A program made the translations under genes and the position numbers. A DNA stretch of 64,000 bases from Metaphire vulgaris. Taxonomy: Eukaryota; Annelida; Clitellata; Crassiclitellata; Megascolecidae. The DNA lies in the NCBI GenBank assembly GCA_018105865.1, contig CM030848.1, forward strand, positions 2,383,001 to 2,447,000, written 5' to 3'. Position 1 is the stretch's first letter. Every line of letters begins with the position of its first letter. This document shows positions 4,481 to 59,752 of this stretch, in pieces. Under the pieces are notes generated by a model, which was not told the origin of the DNA, made no database searches, and was given only the letters and a program-made list of their open reading frames with translations.

Positions 4481-4523
<43 letters not shown>

Positions 4524-8723: not shown

Positions 8724-8766
<43 letters not shown>

Positions 8767-9829: not shown

Positions 9830-9913
<84 letters not shown>

Positions 9914-22270: not shown

Positions 22271-25200
22271 TGATTTTAAGTGGTTTAGGAGGCTAAGTAA
22301 GCCTGTGTGAAAACCACTGATGTAACCATCTGCAGTCAATAACCTAGTTTATCGAGATTGCATGTGTTTGTGTGTACTTCATGGGCTTGCGTTTCTACAT
22401 TTCTACGTTTGTTGGCTGGTTCTGACGCACCAGTTTTTCAAACAATCTCTTTAAAAGTGTTGCTCGCGAGCGCCATTATCACCTAGTGATTCACCAGAGT
22501 ATCCTGCAAATGGACGACATAACTGAGCTGGTTCATTTAAATATTTCATTCCGAGCCTTGCTTTTTATGTCATGTAAGTTTAACTGCTTGTACACACATG
22601 CAACAAGCGTCCAGAAAATATAAGATAATTTCTCAATATTCGTTTTATTATGATTATATTTATAATTGTAGTTAGGGTATAATAACTTAACTTTAGGCTA
22701 AAAGATTGAACCTTGTCAGATATAGGCCTACTGTATTTTCAATTGTTAGGTGTCCTAGCAGTGCTGTACGAGTGGCTATTCTGATCACTTCCTGATTATA
22801 GTTACTATCTTAAAATAACCTAACTATAATCAGAATATTTTTGGCGGCACCTAGTATACAAAGGCGCTACAAATTTGCACTGTTCAGTGTATCGGTAAAG
22901 GAAATTGTGAAGCAGCAGCGCATTCAATCGCAGGCTTTTCCAAAGCAATAACGGATAACAGCATAATCGTAAAACTCGACTTTTGCAACGTCTTAAGTAG
23001 CATGCTCAGAGACAGATTGCTAAAGGATCGGCGCTGTCTTTCCTCTGTATACAAGTATCCAAGAAATTAGGATTCAGATGGCGGGGACGTTCCTACCTAA
23101 ACCCAGCAACCTAACTGCTATTGGTAAGTTGCTACTCCAGCGAACAGGTGATTGGTTCCATCCTCTGTAAGTATCGTGTAAAGGTAAATGTAGGTCCCGT
23201 ACTCGAGTCCGAGCGTTGGGTTCGGCACTTATCACCGGCCTGGGCAATCAGCGACGTAGGTGGTATAATCCATTAATCTGGGGTAGGTTGACATTGCTTT
23301 CCCCAGACCCACGTTTTACCTCGCAGCTTAACGCTGCTCCTCAGTTCACCACCGCCCTCTAGCGAGGAAGGCTGAGTCGACCTTAGAGCTCCTGCGGGAA
23401 TTGAACCCGCGGCCTTCTGTTCCACCGTCCAGCGTTGTTACCACTCAACTAACTTCCCGTATCATATTCTAAATCTAAACACGTTAACTTTACAATCATT
23501 GATGTCCATCATGAAAGCATTAGGAAGAAGGACCAGACATCTGAATCCGTTGATGGTCAAAATTAAGATTGCGATAATCATAGAAAAGCCTATTGATTGG
23601 CTCTGAAAAAGAGTTAAGCAGAATAAATGATTTGATGGCGTCACACTCTTACTTCATTCATTCATTCTTTGGTATTTATAGTGCGCCTGTGCCAAATAAT
23701 GTTTGCAGGTGCATTACAAAAGTCAATCGTGGTAGGCACTGTTAATGAGGTAGGTCTTCCGCCGTTTCCTGAATGCCGTAATTACTTCTCTCGGTCATGG
23801 ACGATAATGACGATTATGCTGCTGCTGATAACGATCGTGATTCTTAGTTCATCATTCATTAGTTCACATGGACGACAGAGGTCCGTTGTGCCAATCTCGT
23901 GTTGCGCGAGTTCTGACCGCGACCGATGGCTGAGTGCCATTCATGAAAAATTGTGGAAGGAAGACCATCGCCGATCTGCTGGGGCCATGTACGGCGTGGT
24001 CTGCCAGGAGGTCTTCTCCAGCTCGGAGGAGGACGCGTCTCGGTGCGTCGAGCAATGGCGCAGGTGAGAGCGCGGTAGGCCGGAATGTTGTTGTCCTGGC
24101 GAGCCACGTGACCGAAGAGAGAGACAGACGGCGTCGCGTGATAATTTCTGTCACTGGCAGGAGGGCAGTCTGGTTGGAGACTGCTTCGTTGGTCACGAAG
24201 TCAAACCAGCGAATGCAGAAAAGCTGTCTCTGGCAGCGCATATGGAATGCCTGTAGTCTTTGAGAGTCTCGTGTAAGCAGAGTCCAAGTCTCAGAACCAT
24301 ATAGGAGAATAGGCAAGACGCAGGACTGATAAATACGGATCTTGGTACCGAGCTGTATCTGTCTTTGGCGCCATAAATTTTGAAGAGATCTCATGGCAGA
24401 TGCAGCTATGCCGATTCTGCGAGTAATGTCCCGCTGACACCTGCCATCAGAACTCTGGACACTGCCCAGGTAAGTGAATTCTGACACATACGTTAATGGA
24501 CACCAGGTGGAAAATATGTCTCCTGCGTCTCCTCCAGAACCCAGATTCTGCAGCCTGGTTTTTGTCCAGGACACATGTAGTCCTAGTTTGGAGGCTGCTT
24601 GGAGGCATCAATGGCATGCTATCTGAGGCATTCTTCACTGCCTCAGGAGTCCGTCAGGGCTGTGTCCTGGCTCCAGCACTCTTTTGCAGGGCTATGGACT
24701 GGATCCTGGAGCATGCTATTGGCCAGACCGGGATCACCCTACCGGAACATAACGTCTGCGACCTAGACTACGCTGACGACGTTGCTCTTCTGGAAACGTC
24801 CGTTAAGAACCTAGAAACATCACTCAATCAAATTTTTAGTGCTATTACGCTTAACCGAACCGAACCCCAACCGCGGTTTTTCGGTTAAAACCAACCCGAA
24901 CCGAAGCATCGGTTTTGACCATGCAAATTTGGACGGTTAATTATTTTTAGTACAGAGTAGCAAATACAATGCATGATTATGAGCGACTTTAAGTCACCTT
25001 CTCTTCTCAGTTAATGCAATTGCCAATAATTGCTGCATAAAAGTGAATCTGCATAAAGTTTACATCACTTTCTCATAGGCAGTGCTGCTGACTCATCATA
25101 GACAATACACATGAACGACGCTTTCTTTATTTTTAACGCTTAAAAGCTGTGCATTCTATTGATGTTAAAAAAACCGAACCAAACCAAAACCGCGGTTTTC

Positions 25201-42611: not shown

Positions 42612-45600
42612 GCTCTCCATAAAGTACGTCACGCTATATTTGGTCATTTTGAGTCCTTTCCTCTGGCACAAACTGTCACAAATCTCTAATCCTTTTAAAG
42701 CGTTATCTATAAATTACGTTATGCAGTTTTTCGTTTAATTTTCTGCAGCAAAACAAATATTTAACTTTCGACGATGATAACGAATATAACTGAGACCTCA
42801 AATTTCATGTATCTCGGGCAAACATTTTTATTGGGCAATATTTGAAACGTCTTTTTCCTACATCACCAATCAGGTATATTTAAGGTTTCATTTATACTGA
42901 AAGGATGACGTCGCGCTGGTCCTTGCCCCTACCTCGGTCACGAACTGTCACACTTTCTTAGACCCACACACTCCTCGAGCGTGACTTACTTTATGGGAAA
43001 AACTAATGAGGATTATTTCTGAAATTTGTTGGTATAATAATAATTTTTGCAATCAATCTATTGAATAAAAATACGATAAGATTGACTATAATTCAATTTC
43101 CGAGACCCTGCAATTCCTTCTTTGTAAAATAAAGAGAATTGGAATCTCTCTTTATCTCCTTGCGATTGTTGCATTATACTCGCTTAAGTTGCCGGTTGTA
43201 GGTTGTTTTTGTCCCAAGCGCCCCCAGTCGACTCGGCTGTGAATGAGCACATCGGGTGTTAACTCAAAGGAAGGAAAGAGGGCGAGGGAAAGACTTGGCA
43301 ATCGACTTGATGGCGGAATGAGAACCTGCTTATCCTTCGGTTCTCCGTATGGGTGCTGAGCCCATGGAGTGCGTCTTTTTAAGTTATCGTTAAGCTAGAA
43401 AATATGTTCTGTCGACGTGTCTCCAGACTCGTTGTGAAATTTGACAGAGATAGTCCGCAGATGAAGATATATAATCAAGTAGCCACACCTATTGCGGTAG
43501 CTGCAACTCTATTTATTGTATGAATTCGCTTTGAACAAGAAAACGTTTCTATTAGACCTATCTACTACAGGTAATGGTAGGTCCCGCACTCGAGTCCGAG
43601 CGTTAGGTTCCGGCGCTTATCTCCGGCCCAGAGGCGGATCTAGAGGGCAGGGTGGAGTACACATATGTCCCCGGGCGCCGAGGTGAGGGGACGCCTATAT
43701 CAGATATTTGGGTAAGTGAAATGCACAGTAAAGTACAAGAAACATGCACAATACTGTAAAAGAAACACGTGTGAGGACCTTTTTTGTTTGACAGCTATGC
43801 TAGGGGCGCCAACAGGGCCATATTAAGGCGGGGGCTGAGGGGCTGTAGCCCCCCGGCCCATCATGAATGTTCCAGCGCGTTCCCGGAGATTCTTCTACAG
43901 ATTTTCACCGCCAAAAATTTTTGTCTGGAGAAATTTTATAAGTGGAGCACCCGTCGTATCATTCACACAACACTTTATGGGAAAATCGACAGGAGAGACG
44001 TCCGCAGAACAGATTTCCTAATGAAAAGGCATCATTACCGGTGCATGATGCAAAAGTCAAATATTTGAAGCCTTTCTTGCACGAACAATTGTAACTGCCA
44101 GCTGTATTGACGCAGGTGGTTGTTCTCGCATCGCATTGAGAGTGTCCATTGGTGCATTCGTTTATATCTACAGGTCAAAATTACTACTTTTTAATGCGTT
44201 ATAACTTATAATATTATATTAATATCAACCTATGTAACCAAACAGAACTATGCCTTAACCTCTAAAATATTGTTCACTACTTTTTTCAAGACATCATACT
44301 ATCTCTGTTTTGCAAATATACAAATTGTTTAATTTATGGATCGATTTATTACTGATGCACTGACCATTATTTTTAATGTAAGCGCATACCATTTTGATTC
44401 CTTCTCTGATCTTTAAGATTGTATTTTGGTCAAACTACTGTAAGCTACCGCTCTGCAAAGACTCGTTTTGTGAGTTATGCTTGATATACTAGAGATTATT
44501 AATGCCCAATACTATTTTGCAAATTGACGAGTAAATAGTGTATTTTAATATTTTAGATAAACTTATATCTTCTAAAGAGAAGGCGACTACCTGTGCATTT
44601 TATTGATCTTAAATACACGTAGCCTACATGTTCCTAAATATTGCAACCCACAATAATTGATTGCATTCGACCAATATCTTGCAGATTATTGTGGATTGAA
44701 AGAGTTGCTCTGCGCACAAACAACAGACATCAACCTGTGCAAGACGTTGAAGTCATTGTTCTGTAGCCGTTTCTGCATTGACATTGATAGCTTCCAACTG
44801 TGTTGACGCAGGTGGTTGTTGTTCGCCCCCTGCCTTCCCTCGCTACGGCACTGTACTGAGACTGATGGACCAACATTCATTTTTTTAGGTATACGAGTAC
44901 CATTTTGATTCCTCCTCCGCTCTAAGGGTCAACACTTAGATCAAAACTTAGGACTGGGATTAGGATTAGGATTAGAACTTAGGATTAGCTGGCTCTCTGT
45001 AATGACTCGTTTTGTGAGTCATATTTTTTATGCTAGAGATGATTAATGCCCAATAATATTTTGCACTTGACGAGTAAATATTTGAATATTTTGGATACAT
45101 TGTGTAAAGGGAAGACGGCTACCTCTGCATGCCTCCACATATCTTGAATTCCTGTAATAATACTTGTAGCCGTTTCTGCATTGACATCGATAGCTTCCAT
45201 CTGTGTTGATGCAAGTGGTTGATGTGGAATCGCATGGAGATTGTCCATTGAAACATTCATCTATATCTAGAGGGAACACATTATATTTGGCCAATATGCC
45301 ATAGTGTTTAATAAATTTTGAACTGCATGAACTTGTTAGCAGAGTCTGAACATAGCACATTAATTAAAATTATTCATATATTTTCATGTTGATAAATTGT
45401 GCTGCTTGTAATAAAAGATTGCTTTCTGTCAATATCTTTAAGAAAGGCGAATGAAATAAATGCTGAGCAAAAATATTAGAGAACAACCTGTGCACGATGT
45501 TGAATTCATTGCTGTGTAACCGGCTTTGCATTGACATCGATAGCTTCCATCTGTGTTGACGCAGGTGGTTGTTGCCAAATTGCATTGAGATTGACCATGG

Positions 45601-48600
45601 GAGCATTCGTCTAAATCTGCAAGAAATTGATTACAGAACATTACATAGGCCTAAAGGTATCTTATCGATTTCAAAATAGAAAATAGTGAGATACAACTGA
45701 GAACAGAATTCATAAATAATGAAGCTGTTCGGAATAATTCTATTTTGTCGGTTTCTGAACTGTACTGTCGTGCACAAACTGGTATCATAACGCTGATTTC
45801 TTGCATATAATTATCATTTGGTTCCTTTTAGTAGACATCACTTCCTGGTGATATCATAAAAGAGTTTACTCCATTCTTCTCCGACTTTTTCAAAGATAAT
45901 CTCCACTGGCTGAAGATAAAGGAACGAATTGCCTACAGACGATGTTTCCTGACGTACAGAGCACTCAACGATTCTCTCTGTCCAGAGTATATTTCCTCGC
46001 TCTTTACAAAATCCACATCACCAATGGAGCGCCGCACTTTCCTCCATTCCAGCAGTCGATTCCAGCCACTAGTCCCCCCACCGGCCAAGTTCGAGGACAG
46101 CGCTGCGTCGCGAGGCAAACCGATCTTATGGAATGTCCTGCGTGACTTCGTAACCAAAGCCGAAAAAGTATCGTTCGTGAAAAACCTAAAGACCTAGCTG
46201 TTCCATCATTCTCATGACTCATGTCAAAGCGCCTTTGACATTGATCTACCCCATGCATACGGCGCTATATAAGTTGTCTCAATAAGTATAAATACAGTAT
46301 ATACTGCATCTATATTGTAGAATGTGGAATGGAATAATCACTTTTTCTAATATCTGGTAAATATCAGACGGTAACCTGTGCATGACGTTGAAGACCATGT
46401 TCTGTAGCCGTTCCTGCATGAACATCGATAGCCTCCATTTGTGTTTTCACAGGAGGTGGTTGTCCTGTCGCATGAATGATGACCATTGGCGCATTCGTCT
46501 ATATCTGCAAGAAACATTGATTATGAGGTAACGTAGCATGGCATCTTATCTACTTTGATATCGTGTAAGATAAAACTACCACTAGAATTTCGAAATAGGG
46601 CCAACATGATTAGTTAGTCAATCTAATGTCCTCAACTATTGAGGTTCATGTTAAGTTATGGTGCTGTCTGTAATAAACTATTGTTTTCGGTCAATATCTT
46701 GAAGAAAGCCGAATAAAATCATTGCTGCTCGCAAATATTATACAGCAACCTGTGCAAGACGTTGAATTCATTGCTGTGTAACCGGCTTTGCATTGACATC
46801 GATAGCTTCCAAGTGTGTTGATGCAGGTGGTTGTTGCCAAATTGCATTGAGATTGACCACGGGAGCATTCGTCTAAATCTGCAAGAAATTGATTACAGAA
46901 CATTACATAGGCCTAAAGGTATCTTATCGATTTCAAAATAGAAAATAGTGAGATACAACTGAGAACAGAATTCATAAATAATGAAGCTGTTCGGAATAAT
47001 TCTATTTTGTCGGTTTCTGAACTGTACTGTCGTGCACAAACTGGTATCATAACGCTGATTTCTTGCATATAATTATCATTTGGTTCCCTCAAGTCTACAT
47101 CAATTTCTGGTGATATCATAAAAGAGTTTATTCCATTCTTCTCCGACTTTTTCAAAGATAATCTCCACTGGCTGAAAATAAAGGAACGAATTGCCTACAG
47201 ACGATGTTTCCTGACGTACAGAGCACTCAACGATTCTTTCTGTCCACATGTTTGGAGAACGTAGCACTTGATTGGAAGGACATGAGGATATTTCAATATC
47301 AATACTGGAATCACGAAGCAGCAATAAGAGCTGAAGGAAAATAGGAAAATAATGGATACAAATTTTAAAAGAGACAAGACAGGGATGCGGTTTGTCATCA
47401 GACCTATGCAAGGAATATTCGGAAGAGATCATAAAGTAAATATAAGGGTTTTAAGGGATCAAAATAGGAAGGGATATAAATAACCTACGATACGCAGATG
47501 ACACCACACTAATGGCATACACGGAAAGAAGACTACAGAGGTTATTAGACAGGGCGACAGAAGAGAGTCAAAAGAAAGGACTAAGAATAAATACAAAAAG
47601 ACGTAAGCCTACTTTGTGGTAATAACACAAAATAAAGAAATTCCTCGGTGTATGCTACAATACATGGGATAGAAGAAAACAAGTAACGCAATTCAATTAT
47701 CTAGGAAACATTTTCACAAGCGATGGAAGGAGTCTAAAGGACATTGAAACAAGAATAATAATGGCAAAGAATAATAATGGCTTCACGCAACTTAAAAAGA
47801 TTCTCAAAAATAAACACATTACAACACAACAACACGGCTCAGAATTCTTCAAAGTTATGTTTGGGCAGTTCTGATGTACGGGTTCTGAAACATGGACGTT
47901 GACAAAAACAACAGAAAGGAAACTGGAAGCTGCAGATATGTGGTTTCCCAGACGTATGCAAACAAATTTCATGGACAGAAAAATAACCAATGAGGAAGTA
48001 TTAAAAGCCTTTGGTTTTAAAAGAAAATTGCTTTAAAAGAGAGCAACAGTTGGAATTTTCGAGCATCTGATTAGAACGGATGGATTGGAAGTTCTAGCCA
48101 TAACATGAGAAATGGAGGGTAAAATAGCAAGAGGAAGACAAATAATAAAAGTATACAGACAGCATAAGGAAAGCAACAAGAACTAAAGACATCATCGAAC
48201 TGATAATGAAAGCCATAAAGGGAGAATAGTGGAAATCCATGAGAACATGATGATGATGCATTAAATCTGTTGCCTACCCTGAGTTCGCTGGGGTTGCAGC
48301 TCGCCCATTGACCGCTGCATAGAAGCTGATACGCGTGGGTATAAGAAAGCCGCGCGCCAGTACTCAACCCTTCTTTGGCTTGGTGTTTTTGGGCTGCGGG
48401 GGTATTACTTGCTCGACTTATTTGTGGGTTTTTCTGGATTGATTCTGCTGCCTGTTCTTTTAGCCGGGGCTTTGGGCGACTCTTTATGGGTTAAAGGGAG
48501 GCTGCTTAAGGACCCGCGGAAGCCCGCTTGTTTGAATGTTATTTGCTTACTGTTAGCAGGGTTTAATCTAGGCCGTTTTCGGGAGGAAATTGCCCTTTCC

Positions 48601-51070
48601 CCGGATATTTTAAATTCCCCGGAAATTTTGCCATTTTAAATCAACCAACAGCAGCCTTGTTTCGAGTTCGCGCAGCAACGGGTGAACGGACAACATCCTG
48701 GTTTTAAGAAAGCGCCACAAGACAATTAAGGTGAAGTCTGGCAGCCAGTGATGTGGTACCCATAGTCCCATACGGTGAGCAATGTTAACCTTATTTTCCC
48801 AACGTTAGTAAATGGGAACATAAAGCTGAAGGTGATGTAGGCACTAGACAGTGAACCATCCGGGTTTCTCGTTCCCTTCGCTTAGAGAACGTGCCTGTCG
48901 TTGATTTCTATATCAAATATTGCTTCAGAAATATTTGCCTAGTAACGATCTCCAACACTAGAATTAGCCTTATTGTAATTGGTTATACATGTACACTGAT
49001 ACATGTACACTGTGTCCAGATTGAAGTGGCCCCTTTTATAAATCAATATAACTTCAACACATTTTATCAAAAATTTACAAAATTTCACCCATATTACATA
49101 TCCTCTATACTACATGAAATTTGAAAATTTAAACAAAATCAGTTGAACAAATTACGAGATATTGATTTTTGAAAAGTTTGACTGAAAAACGCAAGTTTTC
49201 GCAATGGAAAATCGCCATTGCAAACGCGTCATTACGTTGTTTACGCTTTCGATTCCTTCATTTAAAAAAAAGTTATGACCTTTGTCACAAAGGTTATTAA
49301 GATTATAACTCGGTTATAAATTTATAACTGAGTTATAACCATTGTCAATGTATTAAAAATGTTATAATGAATATAACCCGTTATTAAGCTATAAACCGGT
49401 TAAAATGATTATAACCCGGTTAAAATGATTATAACCCTTTTAATAAGTAAGTTATAATGCTTATATAACTGGGTTAAGTTATAAGTTCTTAACAATTCAT
49501 TTTGTGCAAAATAGCAGTAGCCAGTAACTATATATAACCGTGAGTCCATAACCTTTATAACTTTATAATAACCTTTTAACCTTTTTACCATATAACTTTA
49601 TTATAACTTTATAATTAATTTGCATTAATAACCTTTTTTATTAACTGGATTTGTAACTTTATAACTTTCATCTTGCGGTTATTATTGGTTATAACTCGGG
49701 TTAAAATTCAATGGGTTATAACTCACATTTATAACGCTTATCCTAGCTGCACATAATTCATCTGGTGTCGTGGATTTGAAACCAATTGCTGTAACTGATG
49801 GAGACAGATCGCGACAGATCAGTATTGATATTTTATAGGCTGTGATTAAAAAATCTTTTTGCCAACTTCGTGTTCAAGGAAATTCGCTATTCATTTAAAG
49901 TACTTATCATTGTAATTTGCAAATTACAAATGTAGCCTACAAGTTGCTGCGCTCTTCAGGCGAGGGCCGTAAATGTGACACCCGAAAATTCATGCATAAA
50001 CGTCGAAGCCGCAAAATAACAGGCAGCTTTGAAAGAATATCAATCGGCTGGAAGACATTATACTAAAATTTGGAATATCAGAGAATCAGAGGTTTTAATG
50101 GACCATCTCTTAAAAGAATGTCAGATTCAGAGGACGGGGAAGCTCCTGACTTAGCCCATCAGCTTAACCAGAGCCTGTAATAGGGAAAATTGACCACTGC
50201 ACTAGACTCGGAAATTTTGTGCACATCCGCGACAAAACAAGCAAAAAAGCTCGTTAAAAAAATTTATCACTGTAAAATACTTAGAAAATTGTCATTTGAG
50301 CACTGCACATTTTCAAATAATTACTGCAAATTTTGTGTATCACTGCACGTTAAAAAAGGCCCTGAGTTTAAATTCTACTAATTATTAGTTGTTACTCCAA
50401 CGCACAATTGGTTGATTCCACTCTCAGTAGTTATCAAGGTCTAAACTAAGACATTCACTGTTAGGCCTCAAAATCATATATAAATCATCCTGGATAATAA
50501 TAATAATAAAATATATCAACATATACACTATATTAGCAATGTTTGTAACAGAAGTATTATAGAACAAGAGTAAAATATATATGGATTATATATATATAAT
50601 ATATATATATGAATTAAAATGATAGTAACTAATAAAGTTTAGAAAAGGTTTGTATGGGATCATACATCTATTACGTGTTCCAGAAAATCATCATATTTTC
50701 CAACCCTCTCACGTCTGTTGCACTGCGTGAGAAAGTATTTGTTTTAAAATCTAATTATGTCATTTCAACCTGTCTTCTTCAATTGCGGACTCGAATTCTG
50801 TCCGTCTCACTGCCGTGAAGCCTCGCTCGTATTTGCAGTATTCAGATTCAAAATGTATGCAATAGTAATTATTGTGCGTAACCCTGCCCCCACCTCTGTT
50901 CTTTCATCCTAATTTCCTAGCAACCAGCGCCTCTTTAAATCTAATCTGGTGTCTAGATTCCACCAACGGCGGGTCAACGGATGTCAAAGGAAAGCACTTA
51001 TAGCATAGCAATTCTCAAATTTATGAAGTGGTAGCTTCAGAGATTGCATATACCTATAAGGGAGGGAGGT

Positions 51071-51160
<90 letters not shown>

Positions 51161-51190
51161 TAAGGGAGGGAGGGTCTGCTACTGCTACTG

Positions 51191-51266
<76 letters not shown>

Positions 51267-54200
51267 CACTACTAAAGGGCAGACCTGACATTAATGGGAT
51301 CAACAGGTGGGGGTGGCGAACACCGAAGGCGAAACAGGCTCCAGATAAGGTTTTATCGGCAATACCCCAGAGGGTTAATTAAGGACGAAGAGTTGCTGTC
51401 GCCTCCGACGTTGTCACGGTAACTTAAACAACTGCATTGGTGTATGTCAGAATCTGGTATTAATAAAGAAAGGCCCCAGAGGAAGACACTCGGACGGTCA
51501 GAGGAAGGGAGGGGAGAGGGCGCCGGCAGGGGGCGGTAGAGTTTTGACCATTAGGGGGCGGTAGAGTTTTGACCATTAGAGGGCAGTAGAGCTTTTGACC
51601 GCTAGAGGGCAGTAGAGCTTTGGACCGCTAGAGGGCAGTCGGGTTTTTGACCGCGAGGAGAGTCTGTGTTTAGCGCGGGTGGCGAGCAGTCGAAAAAGGC
51701 TCGAGGAGTGTCTTCTACTGGCCGTAAAAAGGAACTCGTGTTAATTTCAATGAAGCGCTAGGGCGATACTCAACAACAACTACAACATCATACGTCAAAG
51801 CAACATCACATACGTATAAGCAACAGCTTATACGTTAAAGGAACACATTTTATACGTTAAAGGTGGTAGAGAACTTTTCTTCGATCCGAAAAACCGTACC
51901 TCCGCTGACCACCAAACAACATGGCGGTCTTCGCAAGTCTTTCTGCCCTAAAGTCATTTTCTGGTAGGCCTGAAGAAGACGTTCTAGACTTTTTGAAGCT
52001 CTTCGAACTGTGGGCGAACGTTCAGAAAGCGGACGACGCGATTCTTAGATCAGCGTTGCCGTTTCTTCTAAAGGATGGAGCCTCGGCGTGGTACGATACG
52101 CAGCACCAGGACATAAAAGAATCGTACTCAGAATTGAAGAAGGCCCTACTGAAGCGTTACAACCAACAAGAAGCCCAATCGTGGCAAGCCATGGCGGAGC
52201 TATGGCAGATGAAACAAGCGGCAGAACAATCCACGGACGACTACGTGACAGCGATCCTTCGAGCGGGGCAACGGATCAAGGTCAGCGAAAGCCAAATCTA
52301 CGCCATCGTGCTGAACGGCCTGAGACCAGCAATACGGCAACACGTGGTGCAGCATCCGCTGTCGACGCTGGACGATGTGAGACACTGGGGGCGCGTCACG
52401 GAGCTCTCGTTGAGGGACAACGCGAGCGCTTCGTCAACTCTCGAGGCCTCCGTGAAGGAGCTAACCGCCGGTCTCACCGAAGAACTCCGTCAACTCCGGA
52501 TCCACTCCGTCGGGGCGTCATCGAAACTGAGATCGCCTGCTATCGAGCGAAGCACCATGCCGAACCGCGTCCACTTCCAGCAGGACGCCGGCCGACGATC
52601 GCCACCCTGCGACGACGATTTCGAGCGACGCCGTATAGCCGAAAAGCACCGGCGGAATCCAGATCAGCCTGCATCGCCATCCACGAGGGAGCAGTTGAAG
52701 TTCGACCCACACCCACCTACAAAAGCCCAGTTCCTTCTGAAACAGCAGCTACAGGCAGCAAGCGACAAAAATAAGATGTACCTGGAAGAGATTGCCTCAA
52801 TGCGAATGGAATTGAAGAAACACTACGAGAAAATCCTACAACTGACCAACGAGCGCGATTCGAGAGAAGAGGAACTTACAAGTCTGCGCAAGGCGTTCAA
52901 CGAAGAGAAAGGTAAACACCAGGGACTAATTGTAAAGACGGAGGACGAGATTCGCTCACTGAACGATGGAATTGACGAAGAGAAGAAACTCAATGCGGAA
53001 CTGTCTCGCCAGATGGAAGAACTCCGAACCATGTCTACCGCTCTGAAGCAGGAATTGAACAGCAGCAAAAACCAGTCTATTATGATCGAGGAACTGGAAG
53101 CCGAAATTGAAAAGCTGGGAAGGAAGTGCGCGGACAGCAAGGCAGAAACGGTTGCAGCAAAACGAGCTTTGAGGAGAGTCCGCAACGAAGTTAACACGCA
53201 GCGTCGTTACCTCAACCAGACAATCGACAAAATGAAGCAAAAGCACAGGGAAGATATCGAAGACCTCGAAGACAAAGCAAACGACTTCAAAGCTTTTCAT
53301 GCCAAAGAATTAGACAAGTTGATTCAAACCAACGACGAACTGCGGGCGTTTCATCGGAAGCAAATGTCGGAGTTACTGAAGCAGAAGGAAGAGGAACTTC
53401 AAGAACAGCATAAAGAAGAAAAGAAAAATCTCGAACGCGAATATCAGCAAGAAATGGAAAGACTACAGTCGAAGCACACAGAACGCATTGGCGATCTAGA
53501 GACGTTGGTGGAATCCCAGAAGCAGATGCAGATTCAGAAGCTGGCGGAAGAACACAGAAAGGAAATCGTCGAGTTGGTTGAAGAATTGAACAGGACGAAG
53601 AATGCGTTAACGATGGCTAATTTTACACTGTCAGAATGGACCGACGAAAAGAAGACGGAGTTAAAGAGGTTGAAGGAAACTCATGCGAAGGAGGTAATGG
53701 AGTCGAGAACGGAATTCGATCGAAGAAACGAGAAAAAATTGCAAAGCACCGCAGACAGATACGAGGCAGAAATTCGACATTTACGAGATCGACTGAACGC
53801 AGCTGAAGGGAAGATCGAGGAACTTGACGTCAAAGACAAAGATAATGAACGGAAACTGGAACTTCTGGAAACCAGCGGTCTTAAGCACGAAGAGGGGAAT
53901 AATAAACTGACGGGGACATCGATGAAAGGCCGCGACAGACGCATCGGGGAGAAGCTTAATCGCCACCAGCACGAAATCGGAAGCATACTGGAGGAGATAA
54001 CAAAAGGTAAGAACTTTGCTGCAAAGAGGGAACAGAATTATGATATAGGACTGAAAAATAAACAGGAAGAGATCGCAAATGCCACGACGAAGGATGTTCG
54101 AGAAATCACTACGCTGCAGTCTCGATGGGAAACGAAATACGAAAAGCAGTTTCATAATGTGGCCAAGAAACACGAGGACAAATTCTGGGCATTTTTAGCA

Positions 54201-56945
54201 GAAAGGAAGTCGGAAGACCAGAGGCAAAGATTTACCGAAGAGAATCTTCGCGGCAAAGTTAAAATAAAAAACGTTGGTACAGCAAATATTAAACATAGAA
54301 GTCGTCTTAAAACGTAAAAGGGACAAGAGAACGGAATTATGTAAGTACACGCCTTTAGATTTAAAAAAATCATGTACACACAAAATTTCACTCACAACAG
54401 TCAAGTTGGGAAACCGGTGTATAATGTATATAAGAATCGTTTTCACTTTTGAAACTGTTTGTTTTTTTCTTGTTTATTATGTGTTTCATATGGTTACGTT
54501 TTAGTAGAAGCGGTATGCCGTTTAGCGTGCTCCAGGATCCAGTCCATAGCCCTGCAAAAGAGTGCTGGAGCCAGGACACAGCCCTGACGGACTCCTGAGG
54601 CAGTGAAGAATGCCTCAGATAGCATGCCATTGATACGCACTCTTGCAGTCGTGCCCTCGTGTAGGTCTTTAATTAAGCTCAATAAGAACGTTGGAACACC
54701 AATACCTCTGAGTGCCATCCAAAGTGCCTGACGGTCTACAGAGTCGAAGGCTGATTTCAGATCGATTAAAGCCACCTGCAACGGTCTGTTAAATTCCGAT
54801 GGATTTCGGACAGGAGTCTGAGTGCGAGAATCGCGTCCATCGTGGATCGGCCCGCCGTGAATCCGGACTGCTGTGGGCGACGTTTCGCTGTCAGAAGTGG
54901 ATTGAGTCTCGCAAGAAGCACGTGGGCAAACACTATTGGCCAGGCCGGGATCACCCTACCGGAACATAGCTTCTCCGACCTAGACTACGCTGACGACGTT
55001 GCTCTTCTGGAAACGTCCGTTAAGAACCTAGAAACATCACTCAATCAGATTGAGTCGACAGCCTCCAAACTAGGGCTACATGTGTCCTGGACAAAAACCA
55101 AGCTGCAGAATCTAGGTTCTGGAGGAGACGCAGGAGACATATACGTTAATGGACACCAGGTGGAAAATGTGTCAGAATTCACTTACCTGGGTAGTGTCCA
55201 GAGTTCTGATGGCAGGTGCCAGCGGGACATTAATCGCAGAATCGGCATAGCTGCATCTGCCATGAGATCTCTTCAAAATTTATGGCGCCAAAGACAGATA
55301 CAGCTCGGTACTAAGATCCGAATTTATCAGTCCTGCGTCCTGCCAATTCTCCTATATGGTTCTGAGACTTGGACTCTGCTTACACGAGACTCTGAAAGAC
55401 TACAGGCATTCCATATGCGCTGTCAGAGACAGCTTCTCTGCATTCGCTGGTTCGACTTCGTGACCAACGAAGCAGTCTCCAAACAGACTGCCCTCCTGCC
55501 AGTGACAGAAATTATTACGCGACGCCGTCTGTCTCTCTTCGGTCACGTGGCTCGCCAAGACAAGAACATTCCGGCCCACCGCGCTCTCACCTGCGCTATT
55601 GCTCGACGCACCGAGACGCGTCCTCCTCCGAGCTGGAGAAGACTTCCTGGCAGACCACGCCGTACATGGCCCCAGCAGATCGGCGATGGTCTTCCTTCCA
55701 CAATTCTTCACGAATGGCACTCAGCCATCGGTCGCGGTCACAACTCGCGCAACACGAGATTGGCACAACGGACCTCTGTCGTCCATGTGAACAAATGAAT
55801 GAATGAATGGTATGCCGTTTGACAAGTGAAAGAACATTTGACAAGGGTACTTGTCGTTTTAGCAGAGCTGGGTTGGGACGTGAGTTTTTATAATTGCATT
55901 GCGTAATGTATTTTTACTTTTGAGTATCGTATAATCGCTTTAAACAGTTTTTCCCATGTAGTTGGTGCTTGAACTAAGAATGTTAGGACCCGTGTGTAGC
56001 GTAGAGTTGTTATTTTTATAATTCTTGCATTATCCTTTTTATTCAGCAATTGAGATCCTTTTTAAGCAATTAAAGAGGCTTATCGATAGCTTGTTTATAG
56101 TATGCGTGATTATCCATGCGACATTGCTGGTGCAAGTCTTTTAGCGATTAGAAATGCTAGTTATATTCGTGTTTTTGTATTAATTGTGTACGTGCACAAG
56201 AGACTCATCACCTACAGTATATTAAGCGTCTTTGACATTTTTTTATCCGTATTTTGTGGTATATGATTAGTAAAATATAATGGATTGTCGTGAAACTGAC
56301 TCAATATTACAAGTTTACATGTTCAGTAATTTAGATGTGCAGCAGAGACGCCGGAGCATGGAAAGTAACACTCATATTTCGGTATAAGGACAATGTCTAA
56401 GCTTTTATATGTTTATTTTTTTAATGTTTATTGTAATATTAGCTAATTTTAAAGTTTTCATTGCATTTTTCTGTTGATTATTTTTACGGCACAGCTTTAG
56501 GTGCACATTTTGCTTTTCTGAACATTTTAAAGTGTTCTCGTACGTGTTTTAATAATGTCGATTGTAGCTCAGTACGCAGACTAGGTAACTACATATAAGG
56601 AACGGCAAAAGACGACAGGTGAAAGTCATGATCTGCTTAGAGACGTGTTGTAATGTAGTCATGTTTGCACTAAGCTATATATTATGTGTAACGTGTTAAC
56701 TTTTGTGTTAGACATATAGCAGAGACAGGTTTTATATCATAGTAGTATTTTCAATGCATATTATGTATTTTTATGTTAGTAATCGCTAACGGATAAGCCG
56801 GGACGGCGACAGCAGCCTGGGGAATTACATAACCAAATTCACATTCCGATTTTAAAAGATGCATCCTAAAACAGCAAATACTCTGGCAGAAGCGCTTCAC
56901 GGGACGTGAAGCCTCGGAGGGAGGGCATCTATAAGGGAGGGAGGT

Positions 56946-57041
<96 letters not shown>

Positions 57042-57106
57042 TAGGGAGGAGGTCTACTACTACTACTACTACTACTACACTACTACTACTACTACTACTA
57101 CTACTG

Positions 57107-57158
<52 letters not shown>

Positions 57159-59752
57159 CACTACTAAAGGGCAGACCTGACATTAATGGGATCAACAGGT
57201 GGGGGTGGCGAACACCGAAGGCGAAACAGGCTCCAGATAAGGTTTTATCGGCAATACCCCAGAGGGTTAATTAAGGACGAAGAGTTGCTGTCGCCTCCGA
57301 CGTTGTCACGGTAACTTAAACAACTGCATTGGTGTATGTCAGAATCTGGTATTAATAAAGAAAGGCCCCAGAGGAAGACACTCGGACGGTCAGAGGAAGG
57401 GAGGGGAGAGGGCGCCGGCAGGGGGCGGTAGAGTTTTGACCATTAGGGGGCGGTAGAGTTTTGACCATTAGAGGGCAGTAGAGCTTTTGACCGCTAGAGG
57501 GCAGTAGAGCTTTGGACCGCTAGAGGGCAGTCGGGTTTTTGACCGCGAGGAGAGTCTGTGTTTAGCGCGGGTGGCGAGCAGTCGAAAAAGGCTCGAGGAG
57601 TGTCTTCTACTGGCCGTAAAAAGGAACTCGTGTTAATTTCAATGAAGCGCTAGGGCGATACTCAACAACAACTACAATATCATCTCAAACAACATTAATC
57701 CTAAGGAACGTCAACTCGTAAAGAGACTACTACAAAAGGCAACACATCTCATACGTTAAAAGAGACTATACGTTAAATACCATATAACGTCACTATTAAA
57801 ATATTAACTTTTACTTAACATTTTACTTCATATATTTTTCCATAATGCTTCATATATTTTACTTTTGTTATAAGTAGTAAAATTATAAAACCTCTTTTAC
57901 TTCATATTTCGCTTCATTTATGTTTATACAATGATTCATACCTTCTACTTTCCTTATACTTATAACTTCATTCGAGATGAGTAGTCCTGAAATGAATAGT
58001 CCTAAAAAGAATATTCCTCCTGATTAAAGGTACTGAGATGAATAGTCCTTGATATGAATAGTCCGCGTTGAACAGTCCTGATATGAATAGTCCTGATATG
58101 AAAAGTCCGGATACCAAGAAGAAGACCCATGCATCTGTATCCAATAACTTTAGTCCAATACCAAGAAGAGTTGTACCGATTGCACGTTTTGCCGGTTGTT
58201 CCGATTACCGATTTCCGATTGTCAGACAACCGATTGTTTTTCCAATACCGATTGTCTGTCGAATTCTCCAAATCGGGCGTTTTAAATTATCATGCAATCG
58301 GATATACCATAAAGGTGCAACGGAAATGCACATGTCTTCGGACTTCGATATGCAGGTGCAATTCAAGGTCTACCAAAAGATTCAAATTACTCAATGCATA
58401 ATGCGTGTTTAATCATTAATGAATAATGAATAATGATTTTGTTATTAATACTTATTATGTCAAATTTTAAATATCTATAATCTATATTCACATTGTAATT
58501 TATAATTTTATATATAGTTATGATTATGAATAATTATTATTCATTCATAATGAATTATTCATTCGTTAATTTATGAATGAAAAAAAATTATTCATTCATT
58601 AAAATTTAAAACCAGAAGTGGTAGTCAGATAGCAGTAGCTTATTTTGTACAAACTCCGATGTCCTGAAACTGAAAGTGTCCAATTAATACATGTTGAAAC
58701 TTGAAACATCGACAAGGGAGGCTTTAGAGACTAGTAGCACGCTACACTGTACTAATAGTCTAATACGTCTGAATAATGTCGACAAAGTCAGATCGGATCA
58801 TCGGACACTAATCCCCTCCGACCGATGGTCAACAGATGTCATCAAGTCATATCTGACACTAATCGTCTCCGACCGACTATCGAATCAAGAATCAAGATAA
58901 GCCATGGAATCCTAAATTGTGCTAAACGTCTTCGTGCTAATTAAAATCCTAATCGTGCTAATAATATTTAGGATTCCATGGATAAGCCTACCCTCCCTCG
59001 GCCCTCCCTCCATCGACAGTTCTACGAGCTCACAGCAGTCGCCGACTCCCCAGATGACGCCAGCATCGCCCCATAGGAAGCGACCAAGGAGTCTGGACTC
59101 CCAGAGGGTGACACTCACCAGTCACCACTCACTCCGGCTGAGAGGTCATACACTGCCCATGCAAGAAACAAATCGGCACCAGACAACTGATTCTTCCGAT
59201 TACCCCAATAATCGGCCCGAATCGAATGTTATCGATTAATCGGTATCGGAACCGGACTGGCGCCAGATTACCGATTGGTCCGATTGTCCTAATAATCGAT
59301 CGATTATGAATGTCACCGATTGACCGCACTCTAATAATACAGCTTTAATAGTAAGCGTCCTGAAGAATTTTTCTGGAATATCTCAAATGACCGCCGCATT
59401 TGGAGAACTCAGCAACCGTTGATGACCAAACTTAAGATTGCGGTAATCATAGAAAAGCATATTGAATGACTCGGCAAAAGAAAGAGCTAAGCATAATTTT
59501 TGTTTTGATGGCGTCACAATTTTACTTCTTACAGTCATTGACGATGATGACGATTCTGATGGTGCTGATGATGATGAACGTGATATTTATAATTATCCCA
59601 TTGCCGCTAGAATTAAGATTTCTGTTTTCTTAGATGTATATTGTTCGCTTAGGCTTATAAGCAAAATAAGTATTCTTACCGTTGTTGCCTAGATGCACAT
59701 ATTCCATCTGTAGGATGAGGCCTGCTATCAATCTTATTGAGAATGCCTTCAT
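36922..59752 (-). CDS. Gene B: multi-EGF single-pass membrane protein with ITAM-like tail
   Basis: Composite model of twelve exons. Transcript order by right coordinates: 59752 (signal peptide), EGF exons 46878, 46504, 45616, 45266, 44167, 42434, 42057, 41529, then 38948 (transmembrane), 37652 and 37049 (cytoplasmic). All junction phases agree (EGF 1-1, TM 1-2, then 2-1, 1-stop) and the sum is 1404 nt, 467 residues plus stop. Expected topology is type I: extracellular EGF stalk, one membrane span, about 55-residue tail. Exons are seen; linkage of the first exon across a 12.8-kb gap filled by an LTR element is inferred and is the weakest point. No SRCR exon found. Expression is not shown by the sequence. 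Confidence 0.68.
37308..37520 (+). mobile_element. LINE 3' end in a gene B intron
   Basis: Plus frame reads [19 protein letters not shown] and VNEFQNK, then 3' UTR TGAACCACTTTAAACCTTG and an AT-rich tail. It lies between the two cytoplasmic exons, in opposite orientation to the gene. Confidence 0.8.
37612..37652 (-). CDS. Gene B short cytoplasmic exon
   Basis: 41 nt between acceptor TTTCAG and donor GTATGAGT. It enters in phase 2 and leaves in phase 1, joining TM and tail exons in frame; encodes about [13 protein letters not shown], a hydrophilic Ser/Gln-rich linker. Support comes from splice sites and phase match, so it is less certain than the flanking exons. Confidence 0.6.
38094..38334. 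mobile_element. GTGGCGTAGC-type MITE in a gene B intron
   Basis: Ends AGTGGCGTAGCTAGG and CCACGTGGCTACGCCA; the same body as 27246-27480 with TCAAATGCTTTAAA and GACCGGTCCCGATC. Confidence 0.7.
38527..38804 (-). mobile_element. tRNA-derived SINE, nearly complete
   Basis: Minus reading begins GGCGGGAAGTTAGAAGAG with A-box-like GTGGTAACAACGC and B box GGTTCAATTCC, then core CTAAGTTCAACTCAGCC. Highly similar to 23183-23459. Confidence 0.82.
38837..38948 (-). CDS. Gene B transmembrane exon
   Basis: 112 nt, acceptor TCTGCAG, donor GTTAAA; phase 1 in, phase 2 out. A short polar start (AATQSDHR) leads into [19 protein letters not shown] and VFLFVF, then WKR. This is a hydrophobic span of about 25 residues with a basic stop-transfer flank, orienting the following exons to the cytoplasm. 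The upstream EGF exon at 41398 ends in phase 1, so it joins in frame. Confidence 0.8.
39360..39377. repeat. Three CCCTAA telomere-type repeats
   Basis: TCCCTAACCCTAACCCTAAT directly abuts the 3' end of the decayed EGF exon, exactly where its splice donor should be. Confidence 0.8.
39378..39507 (-). pseudogene. Decayed EGF exon of gene B
   Basis: Opens [18 protein letters not shown] like exon 41926-42057. The acceptor AG is changed to AA, two single-base deletions shift the frame after GTYT, and the donor GT is replaced by AT at the CCCTAA repeat. It cannot be spliced as a normal EGF exon. Confidence 0.85.
39508..41397. other. Gene B intron with inverted repeats and MITE debris
   Basis: 40010-40195: inverted copies of TCAGGCAATGTTGACATTGC. 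40315-40397: minus-oriented hAT-type end starting CAGCGGTTCCCAAACTGG. 40540-40960: GGGG-rich degenerate element body. 41334-41358: TA tract. No intact exon seen. Confidence 0.55.
40985..41125. repeat. Inverted repeat built on GGAAAGTTCCG
   Basis: GGCAGCAAACTTGCCGGAAC and its inverse (GCGGAACTTTCC... GCAAGTTTGCTGC) flank repeated short palindromes such as CGGAAATTTCCG. The whole stretch can fold into one long hairpin. Confidence 0.75.
41398..41529 (-). CDS. Gene B calcium-binding EGF exon (membrane-proximal)
   Basis: 132 nt, phase 1-1, acceptor GCAG, donor [19 protein letters not shown] start, [12 protein letters not shown], end NSTFCSG. It is the last intact EGF exon before the transmembrane exon. 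Confidence 0.9.
41752..41895 (-). pseudogene. Two EGF exon relics
   Basis: 41752-41797 keeps only the end (about NSTSCIG plus a GTTATT donor). 41856-41895 keeps an end like that of the 7824-type exon (FRPCRG, GTATGC). Neither has a DEC start. Confidence 0.5.
41926..42057 (-). CDS. Gene B calcium-binding EGF exon
   Basis: 132 nt, phase 1-1, acceptor TACAG, donor [24 protein letters not shown] start, a one-residue insertion ([10 protein letters not shown]), end NKTTCLG. N-glycosylation sequons NYT and NKT. Confidence 0.9.
42309..42434 (-). CDS. Gene B calcium-binding EGF exon
   Basis: 126 nt, phase 1-1, acceptor TTAG, donor [19 protein letters not shown] start, [16 protein letters not shown], end NDTFCSG. 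It is the most divergent EGF of the set, close to fibrillin/uromodulin-type cbEGF. No counterpart is visible in the gene A part of the window. Confidence 0.9.
42551..42608. repeat. (TA)n microsatellite
   Basis: About 58 bp of TA with one TG interruption, directly left of the MITE. Confidence 0.95.
42617..42996. mobile_element. MITE with terminal inverted repeats, copy B
   Basis: CCATAAAGTACGTCACGCT at the left and AGCGTGACTTACTTTATGG at the right. Aligns with 4528-4985 and lacks about 80 bp in the middle. Confidence 0.75.
42997..44038. other. Gene B intron, duplicate of 4986-6223
   Basis: Conserved non-coding stretch, including TTCTGTCGACGTGTCTCCAG and the SINE 3' piece near 43573-43630. 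The hAT MITE present in A at 5717-5982 is missing, leaving an empty site at about 43795. Confidence 0.7.
44039..44167 (-). CDS. Gene B calcium-binding EGF exon
   Basis: 129 nt, phase 1-1, acceptor GTAG, donor [20 protein letters not shown] start, [12 protein letters not shown]. Counterpart of 6224-6352. Confidence 0.9.
44591..44632 (-). pseudogene. EGF exon relic, same as at 6410
   Basis: Only the C-terminal end before GTAGTC remains, as in gene A. Confidence 0.5.
44735..44821 (-). pseudogene. Half EGF exon left by a deletion
   Basis: Keeps donor GTTGAT and the C-terminal half ([15 protein letters not shown] onward to TSTSCTG). At 44821 it runs directly into TTCGCCCCCTGCC, which in gene A lies at 7534. 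The 5' half, the acceptor and the whole exon equivalent to 7090-7218 are missing, so this piece cannot be spliced in normally. Confidence 0.85.
45123..45266 (-). CDS. Gene B EGF exon with extended last loop
   Basis: 144 nt, phase 1-1, acceptor CTAG, donor [18 protein letters not shown] start, [12 protein letters not shown], then [16 protein letters not shown]. Counterpart of 7824-7976. Confidence 0.9.
45488..45616 (-). CDS. Gene B calcium-binding EGF exon
   Basis: 129 nt, phase 1-1, acceptor GCAG, donor [18 protein letters not shown] start, [12 protein letters not shown], end NSTSCTG. Differs from 46750-46878 at only a few codons, and about 380 bp of adjoining intron is also duplicated. Confidence 0.9.
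45895..46310 (+). pseudogene. LINE 3' end (CR1-like)
   Basis: Plus frame from 45895 to the stop at 46194: [53 protein letters not shown], then 3' UTR with CATACGGCGCTATATAAG. Strongly 5'-truncated. Confidence 0.85.
46376..46504 (-). CDS. Gene B EGF exon
   Basis: 129 nt, phase 1-1, acceptor GCAG, donor [17 protein letters not shown] start, [16 protein letters not shown], end STSCTG. Counterpart of 1269-1403. In gene A that type lies 3' of the others; in B it sits between two copies of the 8205-type exon, so exon order has been rearranged. Confidence 0.9.
46750..46878 (-). CDS. Gene B calcium-binding EGF exon (first EGF)
   Basis: 129 nt, phase 1-1, acceptor GCAG, donor [18 protein letters not shown] start, [12 protein letters not shown]. 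Recent duplicate of 45488-45616. Its 5' intron shares the ACATGTTTGGAGAACGTAG junction with that of gene A exon 8205. Confidence 0.9.
47160..47262 (+). mobile_element. LINE fragment within the duplicated intron
   Basis: Same reverse transcriptase piece as at 8598 and 45895, cut after TTTCTGTCCACATG. Confidence 0.75.
47400..48262 (+). pseudogene. Second LINE type, broken reverse transcriptase
   Basis: Plus-strand pieces: [18 protein letters not shown] (catalytic YADD) near 47480, [18 protein letters not shown] near 47700, [17 protein letters not shown] near 47890, then [14 protein letters not shown] and [10 protein letters not shown]. Several frame breaks and stops. It lies in a presumed gene B intron. 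Confidence 0.75.
48263..49269. other. No recognised gene
   Basis: 48290-48660 is GC-richer than its surroundings and has a 76-codon hydrophobic plus-strand frame with no known motif. The rest is AT-rich. Confidence 0.35.
49270..49740. repeat. TTATAAC-rich palindromic tract
   Basis: Dozens of GGTTATAA and TTATAACC in both orientations (such as AACTCGGTTATAAATTTATA), able to form many small hairpins. Confidence 0.8.
49741..51054. other. AT-rich stretch, no recognised feature
   Basis: A short AAT run near 50490 and an AT palindrome near 50590. No exon seen. Confidence 0.35.
51055..51789 (+). repeat. Left LTR
   Basis: Opens TATAAGGGAGGGAGG, then two CTA tracts (51070-51160, 51181-51268), a unique part with AATAAAG at about 51461 (possible polyadenylation signal), and five degenerate units of TAGAGGGCAGTAGAGCTTTT (51520-51655). 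Confidence 0.8.
51921..54317 (+). CDS. Gag-like capsid protein fused to a long coiled coil
   Basis: 798 residues, intact. About residues 1-165 match a Ty3/Gypsy-type retrotransposon Gag: [71 protein letters not shown]. Residues 180-265 are polar and basic ([18 protein letters not shown]). From about 265 to 780 the chain is almost continuous heptad-like coiled coil rich in E, K, L and Q, without prolines. No CCHC zinc knuckle and no protease follow. The start is the first ATG of the frame, in an AACATGG context. Usual Gags are about 300-500 residues, so the coiled coil looks like an acquired extension. Its source and role are unknown. Confidence 0.85.
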   Translation: MAVFASLSALKSFSGRPEEDVLDFLKLFELWANVQKADDAILRSALPFLLKDGASAWYDTQHQDIKESYSELKKALLKRYNQQEAQSWQAMAELWQMKQAAEQSTDDYVTAILRAGQRIKVSESQIYAIVLNGLRPAIRQHVVQHPLSTLDDVRHWGRVTELSLRDNASASSTLEASVKELTAGLTEELRQLRIHSVGASSKLRSPAIERSTMPNRVHFQQDAGRRSPPCDDDFERRRIAEKHRRNPDQPASPSTREQLKFDPHPPTKAQFLLKQQLQAASDKNKMYLEEIASMRMELKKHYEKILQLTNERDSREEELTSLRKAFNEEKGKHQGLIVKTEDEIRSLNDGIDEEKKLNAELSRQMEELRTMSTALKQELNSSKNQSIMIEELEAEIEKLGRKCADSKAETVAAKRALRRVRNEVNTQRRYLNQTIDKMKQKHREDIEDLEDKANDFKAFHAKELDKLIQTNDELRAFHRKQMSELLKQKEEELQEQHKEEKKNLEREYQQEMERLQSKHTERIGDLETLVESQKQMQIQKLAEEHRKEIVELVEELNRTKNALTMANFTLSEWTDEKKTELKRLKETHAKEVMESRTEFDRRNEKKLQSTADRYEAEIRHLRDRLNAAEGKIEELDVKDKDNERKLELLETSGLKHEEGNNKLTGTSMKGRDRRIGEKLNRHQHEIGSILEEITKGKNFAAKREQNYDIGLKNKQEEIANATTKDVREITTLQSRWETKYEKQFHNVAKKHEDKFWAFLAERKSEDQRQRFTEENLRGKVKIKNVGTANIKHRSRLKT
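54318..54511 (+). other. LTR-element internal non-coding region, left of the LINE
   Basis: AT-rich, no motif seen. It continues at 55821 beyond the nested LINE. Confidence 0.5.
54524..55808 (+). mobile_element. Nested LINE with 5' inversion and 12-bp target duplication
   Basis: GGTATGCCGTTT occurs at 54512-54523 and 55809-55820. The right part (about 54930-55798, plus) is an intact reverse transcriptase C-terminal frame: [61 protein letters not shown], and a (GAAT)n tail. The left part (54524 to about 54925) is the preceding coding segment on the minus strand: [29 protein letters not shown], and WILEHA at the outer end. This is the product expected from twin priming. The same family lies at 23838-24828. 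Confidence 0.92.
55821..56931 (+). other. LTR-element internal non-coding region
   Basis: About 1.1 kb with no long frame and no enzyme motif. It ends in GCCTCGGAGGGAGGGCATC, a likely polypurine tract for plus-strand priming. Confidence 0.55.
56932..57776 (+). repeat. Right LTR
   Basis: Opens TATAAGGGAGGGAGG. CTA tracts differ in length and arrangement from the left LTR; the unique part looks identical to 51278-51788. The part after 57677 is similar to the left copy only in ACGTTAAA motifs. Confidence 0.78.
57970..58110. repeat. Short minisatellite, ATGAATAGTCCTG units
   Basis: About ten degenerate units of 11-17 bp such as GATATGAATAGTCCTG. Confidence 0.8.
58140..59339. mobile_element. CCGATT-rich repeat, possibly a hAT-like element
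   Basis: 58150-58270 and 59170-59335 carry clusters of CCGATTACCGATT and, inverted, AATCGGT at the two ends of a 1.2-kb stretch, like the sub-terminal motifs of 24837-25258. 58400-58610 is an AT palindrome with TTATTCATTCATT. No transposase seen. Confidence 0.4.
59680..59752 (-). CDS. Gene B first coding exon (signal peptide)
   Basis: 73 nt: ATG at 59752, [20 protein letters not shown], donor GTAAGA. Same length, frame and donor as 25359-25431, with three amino-acid changes at the 3' end. The next intact gene B exon is 12.8 kb away (46878), so either the intron is long or this exon is now orphaned. Confidence 0.72.

Follow-up and report, generated by a model that had tools for sequence, protein, structure and literature searches.

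How can a retrotransposon whose only protein is a capsid domain joined to a long helical rod, with no polymerase of its own, spread in an animal genome, and from where did it acquire the rod? The question is raised by a long terminal repeat (LTR) element in a 64,000-nucleotide stretch of DNA from the annelid Metaphire vulgaris (assembly GCA_018105865.1, contig CM030848.1, positions 2,383,001 to 2,447,000, forward strand; the window hereafter), which belongs to a genome of 728 Mb in 246 contigs. The answer that we consider very probable is that the element represents a non-autonomous family of Ty3/gypsy type, which was formed by capture of a host cDNA, is moved in trans by an autonomous relative (the helper) and recombines with the lineage of that helper. 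It is best read as an old and recently mobile Gag-host fusion, formed in the manner of the v-onc genes or of the transduction in maize Bs1.

The Gag-coil protein, its copies and the two sources of its sequence

The open reading frame (ORF) of the element is intact over its 798 codons, as described in an initial annotation made from the sequence of the window alone, and the Gag capsid motifs reported there are borne out by matches of residues 12-161 to Drosophila Arc2 (phmmer E 9.3e-7) and of residues 10-161 to Arc1 (E 3.3e-4). A Pfam scan of the protein gave no match. A structure model of the Gag part, built from three sequences (mean pLDDT 63), has as its best Foldseek matches Arc C-lobes, the HIV capsid and MOAP1, the Arc C-lobe match being assigned a probability of 1.00 but an E of 0.06, with nothing at E <= 0.001; by its sequence likeness to Arc, to which Foldseek adds slightly, the capsid is of the Ty3/Arc type. 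No CCHC motif occurs in the ORF, in agreement with the absence of a zinc knuckle noted at the outset. Past residue 266 the protein lacks proline for 532 residues, the longest such run among 500 translated shuffles being 365, and its hydrophobic periodicity, 3.50 in residues 267-405 and 3.68 in 410-570, was equalled in none of 200 shuffles, falling lower in residues 674-775 (9 of 200 shuffles as strong). A single-sequence AlphaFold model (mean pLDDT 60, pTM 0.26) places helices at 268-405, 411-569, 575-652 and 673-775, mostly at pLDDT 70-80, so that residues 268-775 are predicted to form a long, nearly continuous helix, a proline-free coil of about 510 residues. An internal duplication within the coil was considered and is unconvincing (score 71 against at most 67 in 30 shuffles). 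Protein searches with residues 262-798 and 1-262 (full length) gave nothing informative, and the same holds for the element in viral and prokaryote collections, plasmids, phages and Rfam.

The coil is not a local chimera, which the initial annotation had named as a possible refutation. Querying the genome with the coil DNA found at least 13 near-complete copies at 98-99% identity plus one place at 69%, and querying with the coil protein found these 13 again, together with a fragment on C20 and, on C28 and C36, places that contain an intron; such copy counts are lower bounds. All 12 other copies were fetched, and each has the layout of the window copy, with LTR, Gag and coil sequence and no pol between the coil and the 3' region. 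Since the Gag/coil junction is identical in 13 of 13 copies, a single capture is indicated, and the same fact rules out an internal deletion of an autonomous element as the origin of the window copy. The frame is open in seven copies (798 codons in the window and five others, 846 in one) and broken in the other six. Comparison of LTR cores, spanning 387-531 bases per copy with 0-7 indels, gave no substitution in six copies (the window, L009, L012, L013, L015 and L019), one in three (L011, L017 and L020), and 10, 13, 16 and 48 in L018, L016, L014 and L010 respectively, so that nine of the 13 are recent and the proposal of recent activity stands. Target duplications of 4 bp were seen by eye in nine of the ten copies for which both ends were found; L014 has no clear one, and for L010, L013 and L016 the patterns used missed at least one of the two ends. 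With direct LTRs, a poly(A) signal and a short target duplication, the element has what defines an LTR retrotransposon. A further locus, L038 (C20:3304600-3306600), holds a Gag-coil fragment, 98.7% identical over 299 bases, that stops at the equivalent of 52932 beside an inverted LTR and leader, a layout such as might result if an element integrated into its own DNA.

The genome also contains an autonomous relative, as the initial annotation had presumed, which shares the LTR and Gag of the element and has a pol. Two proteins found by protein search (P0001 and P0002, source 'lgn') are Gags of the usual kind, with 78% and 48% identity to the Gag-coil protein as far as residue ~248-250 and zinc knuckles in the place of the coil. 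A search with P0001 of the genome to which the window belongs gave 117 rows (350 candidates, 113 scored), and the five best, which extend into the knuckles, are L031-L035; frames of reverse transcriptase (RT) type lie downstream of Gag in L033, L034 and L035, with none in the examined part of L032. Over the 8.5 kb read, the locus L036 shows the 5' LTR of the element and the beginning of its 3' LTR. Its Gag has two CCHC knuckles followed by one TAG and then, in the same frame, a pol of 1156 codons, in which Pfam recognises protease (PR), RT, RNase H and integrase in the Ty3/gypsy order PR-RT-RNase H-integrase, the last part of the integrase lying in another frame in L036. This TAG with an in-frame pol, on the reverse strand, suggests stop-codon readthrough, comparable to that at the Gag stop of murine leukaemia virus. 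The window matches L036 at 51915-52663 (92%), 54379-54523 (84%) and 55809-57103 (95%), with no match between 52663 and 54379, where the block found in the window occupies the place of about 4.6 kb of L036. Residues 249-267 have no convincing match either to the helper or to a 40-kb host region. That the tail of the element might be a host 3' untranslated region is ruled out, since L036 carries the same 3' region. The absence of pol from the element, as first annotated, holds for the 10 frames scanned of the 49 listed downstream of the ORF: no LTR-type pol was found, the only RT matches being the two frames of a nested long interspersed nuclear element (LINE), and a decayed pol in the 3' region is not supported, two of the frames giving insignificant matches (E 0.022 and 0.21) and six none or none relevant. 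The element appears to spread with the machinery of an intact relative in the same genome.

The coil itself points to a host gene. On C28, pieces at 65-69% DNA identity match it in order (52800-53159 and 53175-54268) and correspond to an exon A of 453 bases, with TTTTCAG ahead and GTAGGC behind, and an exon B preceded by TTTGCAG, that is, to exons with GT-AG borders. Between them lies an intron of 974 bp; the element crosses the junction without it, and the block was therefore copied from a spliced mRNA. What the element holds is a spliced, truncated and internal part of the gene, with exon B cut midway, and further coil-like frames flank the matching exons on both sides on C28. A paralog on C36 has its intron at the identical position; the two coiled-coil genes (C28:1727952-1739802 and C36:1392600-1394900) each have a long second exon and a 642-codon open frame. 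Protein identity is 48.8% between element and C28 (523 codons), 39.2% between C28 and C36 (554) and 32.3% between element and C36 (498). The element is thus more like C28 than the paralogs are like each other, which puts it on the C28 side after their split, and the C28 lineage is nearest to the donor. For element and C28, dS is 0.99, dN 0.37 and dN/dS 0.38, a ratio that mixes host and element branches, and dS in the other two pairs (1.97 and 3.77) is near saturation; 76 residue changes are specific to the element lineage against 42 to that of C28. The place of the element beside C28 and the spliced, internal part that it holds argue for transfer from host to element by way of an mRNA. Because knuckles stand here in the Gag of the relative, and a host gene is akin to the coil, the rod was gained, not kept, these being the two possibilities that the initial annotation had left side by side. 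Its description of the rod as myosin-like is not supported, as the coil matches no solved coiled coil (a PDB search for a myosin origin, taken to E 10, gave two peptide deformylase chains only, at 0.28), and what stands closest to it is an as yet unnamed coiled-coil gene of the host. The best PDB match of exon B is keratin (E 0.021). A pericentrin/AKAP9-like identity of the host gene, which was also considered, is unsupported, Pfam giving nothing above cutoff and a regular expression for the PACT region no match.

Gag exchange, selection and competing explanations

The two halves of the protein have different histories. Silent difference summed over pairs of the 13 copies is 0.128 in Gag against 0.023 in the coil, the drop being located near their junction; the coils of L012 and L014 are 0.2% apart, their Gags 7.7%. 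In L019, Gag is 2.3-3.0% from four of the helpers and 9.1% from the other coil elements, with 1.5% for its coil, and in the Gag tree L019 groups with the five helpers with support 100/100. The discordance, with a helper-like Gag in L019, therefore indicates that at least one copy has recombined with the helper lineage; other discordances between Gag and coil may reflect exchange among coil elements. Two leader types, with and without an MSQTADD start, occur in both kinds of element, the former in 4 of 13 coil copies and 3 of 5 helpers. The likely cause of the exchange is recombination between co-packaged RNAs, in which case both kinds of element would meet in one particle.

A mechanism can be proposed on this basis. 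The reverse transcript of an autonomous element would have switched template into a spliced host coiled-coil mRNA and then back, and some 1.7 kb of host cDNA, in frame with the Gag capsid, would thereby have replaced nucleocapsid, protease, RT, RNase H and integrase. The pol of the helper, which has the same LTRs, would mobilise the family in trans, the capsid domain probably co-assembling with helper Gag, and recombination with the helper lineage would exchange Gag and retain the coil module, as it has in L019. In what is the weakest step, the coil would most likely serve as an oligomerising or targeting rod that carries Gag and RNA to the place of helper assembly. The rod may, as the initial annotation proposed, alter particle assembly, RNA packaging or trafficking.

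Selection bears on whether the coil is a working part. In polymorphism totals that omit positions with more than two letters (8 in Gag, 3 in the coil), shared polymorphisms in Gag comprise 36 nonsynonymous and 40 synonymous changes, 0.36 of neutral (P 8e-6), and singletons 30 and 23 (0.52, P 0.015), a clear deficit of amino-acid changes that places Gag under constraint. The corresponding counts for the coil are 28 and 10 (0.96, P 0.52) and 46 and 24 (0.66, P 0.067), which give no clear sign of constraint within the family. Pairwise pN/pS over the 13 copies, a comparison close to the dN/dS between copies that the initial annotation had recommended, is 0.31 in Gag and 0.62 in the coil (0.50 in the seven open copies). 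One stop occurs among the polymorphisms of each part, the neutral stop share being 0.049. On the longer scale, 532 coil codons have stayed free of stops despite a dS of about 1 to C28; as a rough estimate, a few hundred changes on the element branch would be expected to bring about a dozen stops under neutrality, unless much of the divergence predates the capture, in an unseen donor.

That the coil is a selected part, a host scaffold rod steering Gag to helper assembly while Gag swapping keeps pace with the helper, is a possibility to which we would give somewhat less than an even chance. It is also possible, if doubtful, that the capture is real and the coil merely persists as a passenger, the LTRs, leader and polypurine tract alone mattering for mobilisation; the polymorphisms of the coil, shared and singleton, speak for this explanation, and against it stand the long open frame at such divergence with a dN/dS of 0.38 to the nearest host gene, the pN/pS values of the coil, the single stop among its polymorphisms and the full frame retained in 7 of 13 copies. 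The constraint on a capsid that has lost its nucleocapsid would suit an interference factor, a Gag-coil protein which poisons or captures helper particles and so favours its own RNA or restricts the helper; this seems unlikely, as the family has recent copies and the helper Gags are mutually close (1.3-3.5% in four of five), so that neither family nor helper seems shut down. Derivation of the C28 and C36 genes from the element, with introns gained later, has the shared sequence and nothing beyond in its favour and is highly improbable given the internal, truncated part in the element, the flanking coil-like frames on C28, and two paralogs with a common intron position with the element nested next to C28. 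Equally improbable is a domesticated, Arc-like Gag gene lying between repeats by chance: its Arc-like capsid would fit, but domesticated Gags of the Arc/PNMA kind are few, fixed, immobile loci, and what is found are 13 copies scattered over the genome that bear LTRs, mostly also target duplications, and in nine cases near-identical LTR cores.

Several observations weigh against the account of host capture and mobilisation by a helper that we prefer. Mobilisation in trans is something we infer from the shared LTR, leader and 3' region and from recombination. The Gag tree puts the five helpers in one group (94/97), so that exchange with the helper is clear for L019 only. At only 49% amino-acid identity and a dS of about 1, the nearest host gene need not be the direct donor, which may be some other gene that was not seen, and it shows no Pfam family above cutoff on five reading frames and no known family, NCBIfam included. 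Host-derived coding sequence lies between LTRs and lacks the donor introns, as expected of a transduction, while the near-identity to a donor gene that is also expected of one is not found. Along with the near-neutral shared polymorphisms of the coil, its continuity as first annotated is qualified, the proline-free and periodic residues 267-570 conforming to it and residues 575-650 showing no significant coiled-coil periodicity (101 of 200 shuffles as strong). Lastly, the LTRs of the window copy, described at first as identical outside microsatellites, are so over 512 core bases outside the (CTA)n tract, but in the variable 20-bp-repeat tract of the U5 tail they differ, over the last 76 bases in the 5' and 100 in the 3' LTR. 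Standard reverse transcription is expected to give equal tails, and a simple insertion does not explain the difference. Among the 11 copies in which both tails were read they are unequal in five (the window, L010, L013, L017 and L018), and those of L020 differ by one base; the inequality may come from the packaging of two unlike RNAs or from gene conversion.

Termini, nested insertion and neighbouring repeats

The features of the element are collected in the table, with its 3' end corrected from the 57776 first given. For comparison with the candidate primer-binding site, no tRNA genes were found in the window; a polypurine-like tract similar to that adjoining the 3' LTR occurs in other copies.

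Table. Positions, within the window, of the element, its parts and the insertion it contains
Feature	Position	Strand	Remarks
LTR element, whole	51055-57777		3' end corrected
Target-site duplication TACC	51051-51054 and 57778-57781		left and right copies
5' LTR (TATAAGG...GTTAAA)	51055-51861	+	(CTA)n microsatellite in U3; AATAAA at 51462; variable 20-bp repeats end U5
Tandem ~26-bp repeats, five per LTR	51523-51638 and 57415-57530	+ in 5' LTR	each with a CTCF-like core match, 0-1 mismatch
Unequal U5 tails	51786-51861 and 57678-57777		core identical, target duplication intact
Candidate primer-binding site	51864-51880	+	begins TGG, 2 bases past 5' LTR
Gag-coil ORF	51921-54317	+	intact, 798 codons
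Gag capsid and linker, residues 1-248	51921-52663	+	common to autonomous relative
Captured host-derived block (~1.7 kb)	52664-54378	+	3' edge approximate; in place of knuckles, protease, RT, RNase H, integrase
Predicted coiled coil, residues 268-775	52722-54245	+
Exon A/exon B junction	53160-53174	+	crossed without intron
3' noncoding part before LINE	54379-54523	+	84% to autonomous L036
LINE target duplication, 12 bp, GGTATGCCGTTT	54512-54523 and 55809-55820
Nested LINE fragment (~1.3 kb)	54524-55808		RT halves on opposite strands
3' noncoding part after LINE	55821-56929	+	95% to autonomous L036
Candidate polypurine tract GGAGGGAGGG	56916-56925	+	ends 4 bases ahead of 3' LTR
3' LTR	56930-57777	+

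Matches to a CTCF-like core number 12 in the window, 10 of them inside the LTR repeats, against 1.06 expected. The other 12 copies have them too, in varying number, as do the three helper loci examined, so that the family and its helper may spread mobile CTCF-like clusters across the genome. The nested LINE is lacking in all 12 other copies fetched and was therefore inserted after this element. A second LINE copy at 23848-24834 is 93.7% identical to it over 758 bases, and both carry an inverted part and are of the twin-priming type. Elsewhere in the window, 1-11300 and 42695-47272 share many direct repeats of about 75-94% identity in partly conserved order, pointing to segmental or satellite-like duplication.

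Comparison with known systems

The value of the family lies in what one genome preserves: 13 copies with their breakpoints, the helper, and a host gene related to the donor whose intron the copies lack; the fusion, moreover, has probably been long-lasting. With it one can test whether a capsid protein that exchanges its RNA-binding domain for a scaffold domain of the host is still able to spread, and by what means a parasite remains compatible with its helper; should the coil prove to be selected, the family would be a two-component, module-exchanging parasite with a host trafficking domain.

Gag-host fusions are best known from tumour retroviruses, as short-lived products, and the Gag-onc fusions of acutely transforming retroviruses resemble the present one: there too the 5' part of Gag is kept, the rest of gag and pol is replaced in frame by an intronless host cDNA, and a helper is needed. 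Here, in contrast, the vehicle is a germline retrotransposon, the captured part a structural coil and not a signalling gene, the capture old (dS about 1) and the copies 13 and dispersed. The TR-GAG elements of plants share LTRs, an ORF for Gag only and mobilisation in trans, which for the present family is the probable mode; theirs is a complete gag including the nucleocapsid, whereas here a host coil without CCHC replaces the nucleocapsid from residue 249.

Maize Bs1 is an LTR element with transduced host gene sequence (PMC7264820, PMC5408686), and in that respect alike; the present case differs in its animal genome, in the single host piece set on a full capsid domain and in having a relative of the donor gene and a helper in the same genome. 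LTR-mediated retroposition in metazoans by template switching between element RNA and cellular mRNA (Tan et al. 2016, as cited in PMC5408686) shares the proposed mechanism, but as described there it yields retrocopies and not a multi-copy family with a fused ORF and helper exchange. The bdelloid LTR elements, also of an invertebrate, have gained foreign ORFs, as an extra ORF3 beside gag-pol and not as a Gag fusion replacing pol (PMC5408684); comparison with the account of C. elegans Cer1 (PMC10309623) was uninformative. Foamy virus Gag has no Cys-His fingers and uses coils for Gag-Gag contact and for dynein transport to the centrosome (PMC7828637), which by analogy suggests that a fingerless, coil-bearing Gag can work; its nucleic-acid binding is GR-rich and its coils are N-terminal. 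The likeness is one of analogy and not kinship.

No animal family with a capsid-host-rod layout is named among the literature matches listed, a set outside which most subscription papers fall, in keeping with the initial annotation, which knew of no described family of this kind. Transduction of host genes by LTR elements is known already, foremost from Bs1; what appears new, with none alike among those matches, is a family whose sole protein joins a capsid to a rod from the host where the nucleocapsid would be, and whose Gag is exchanged with the helper lineage.
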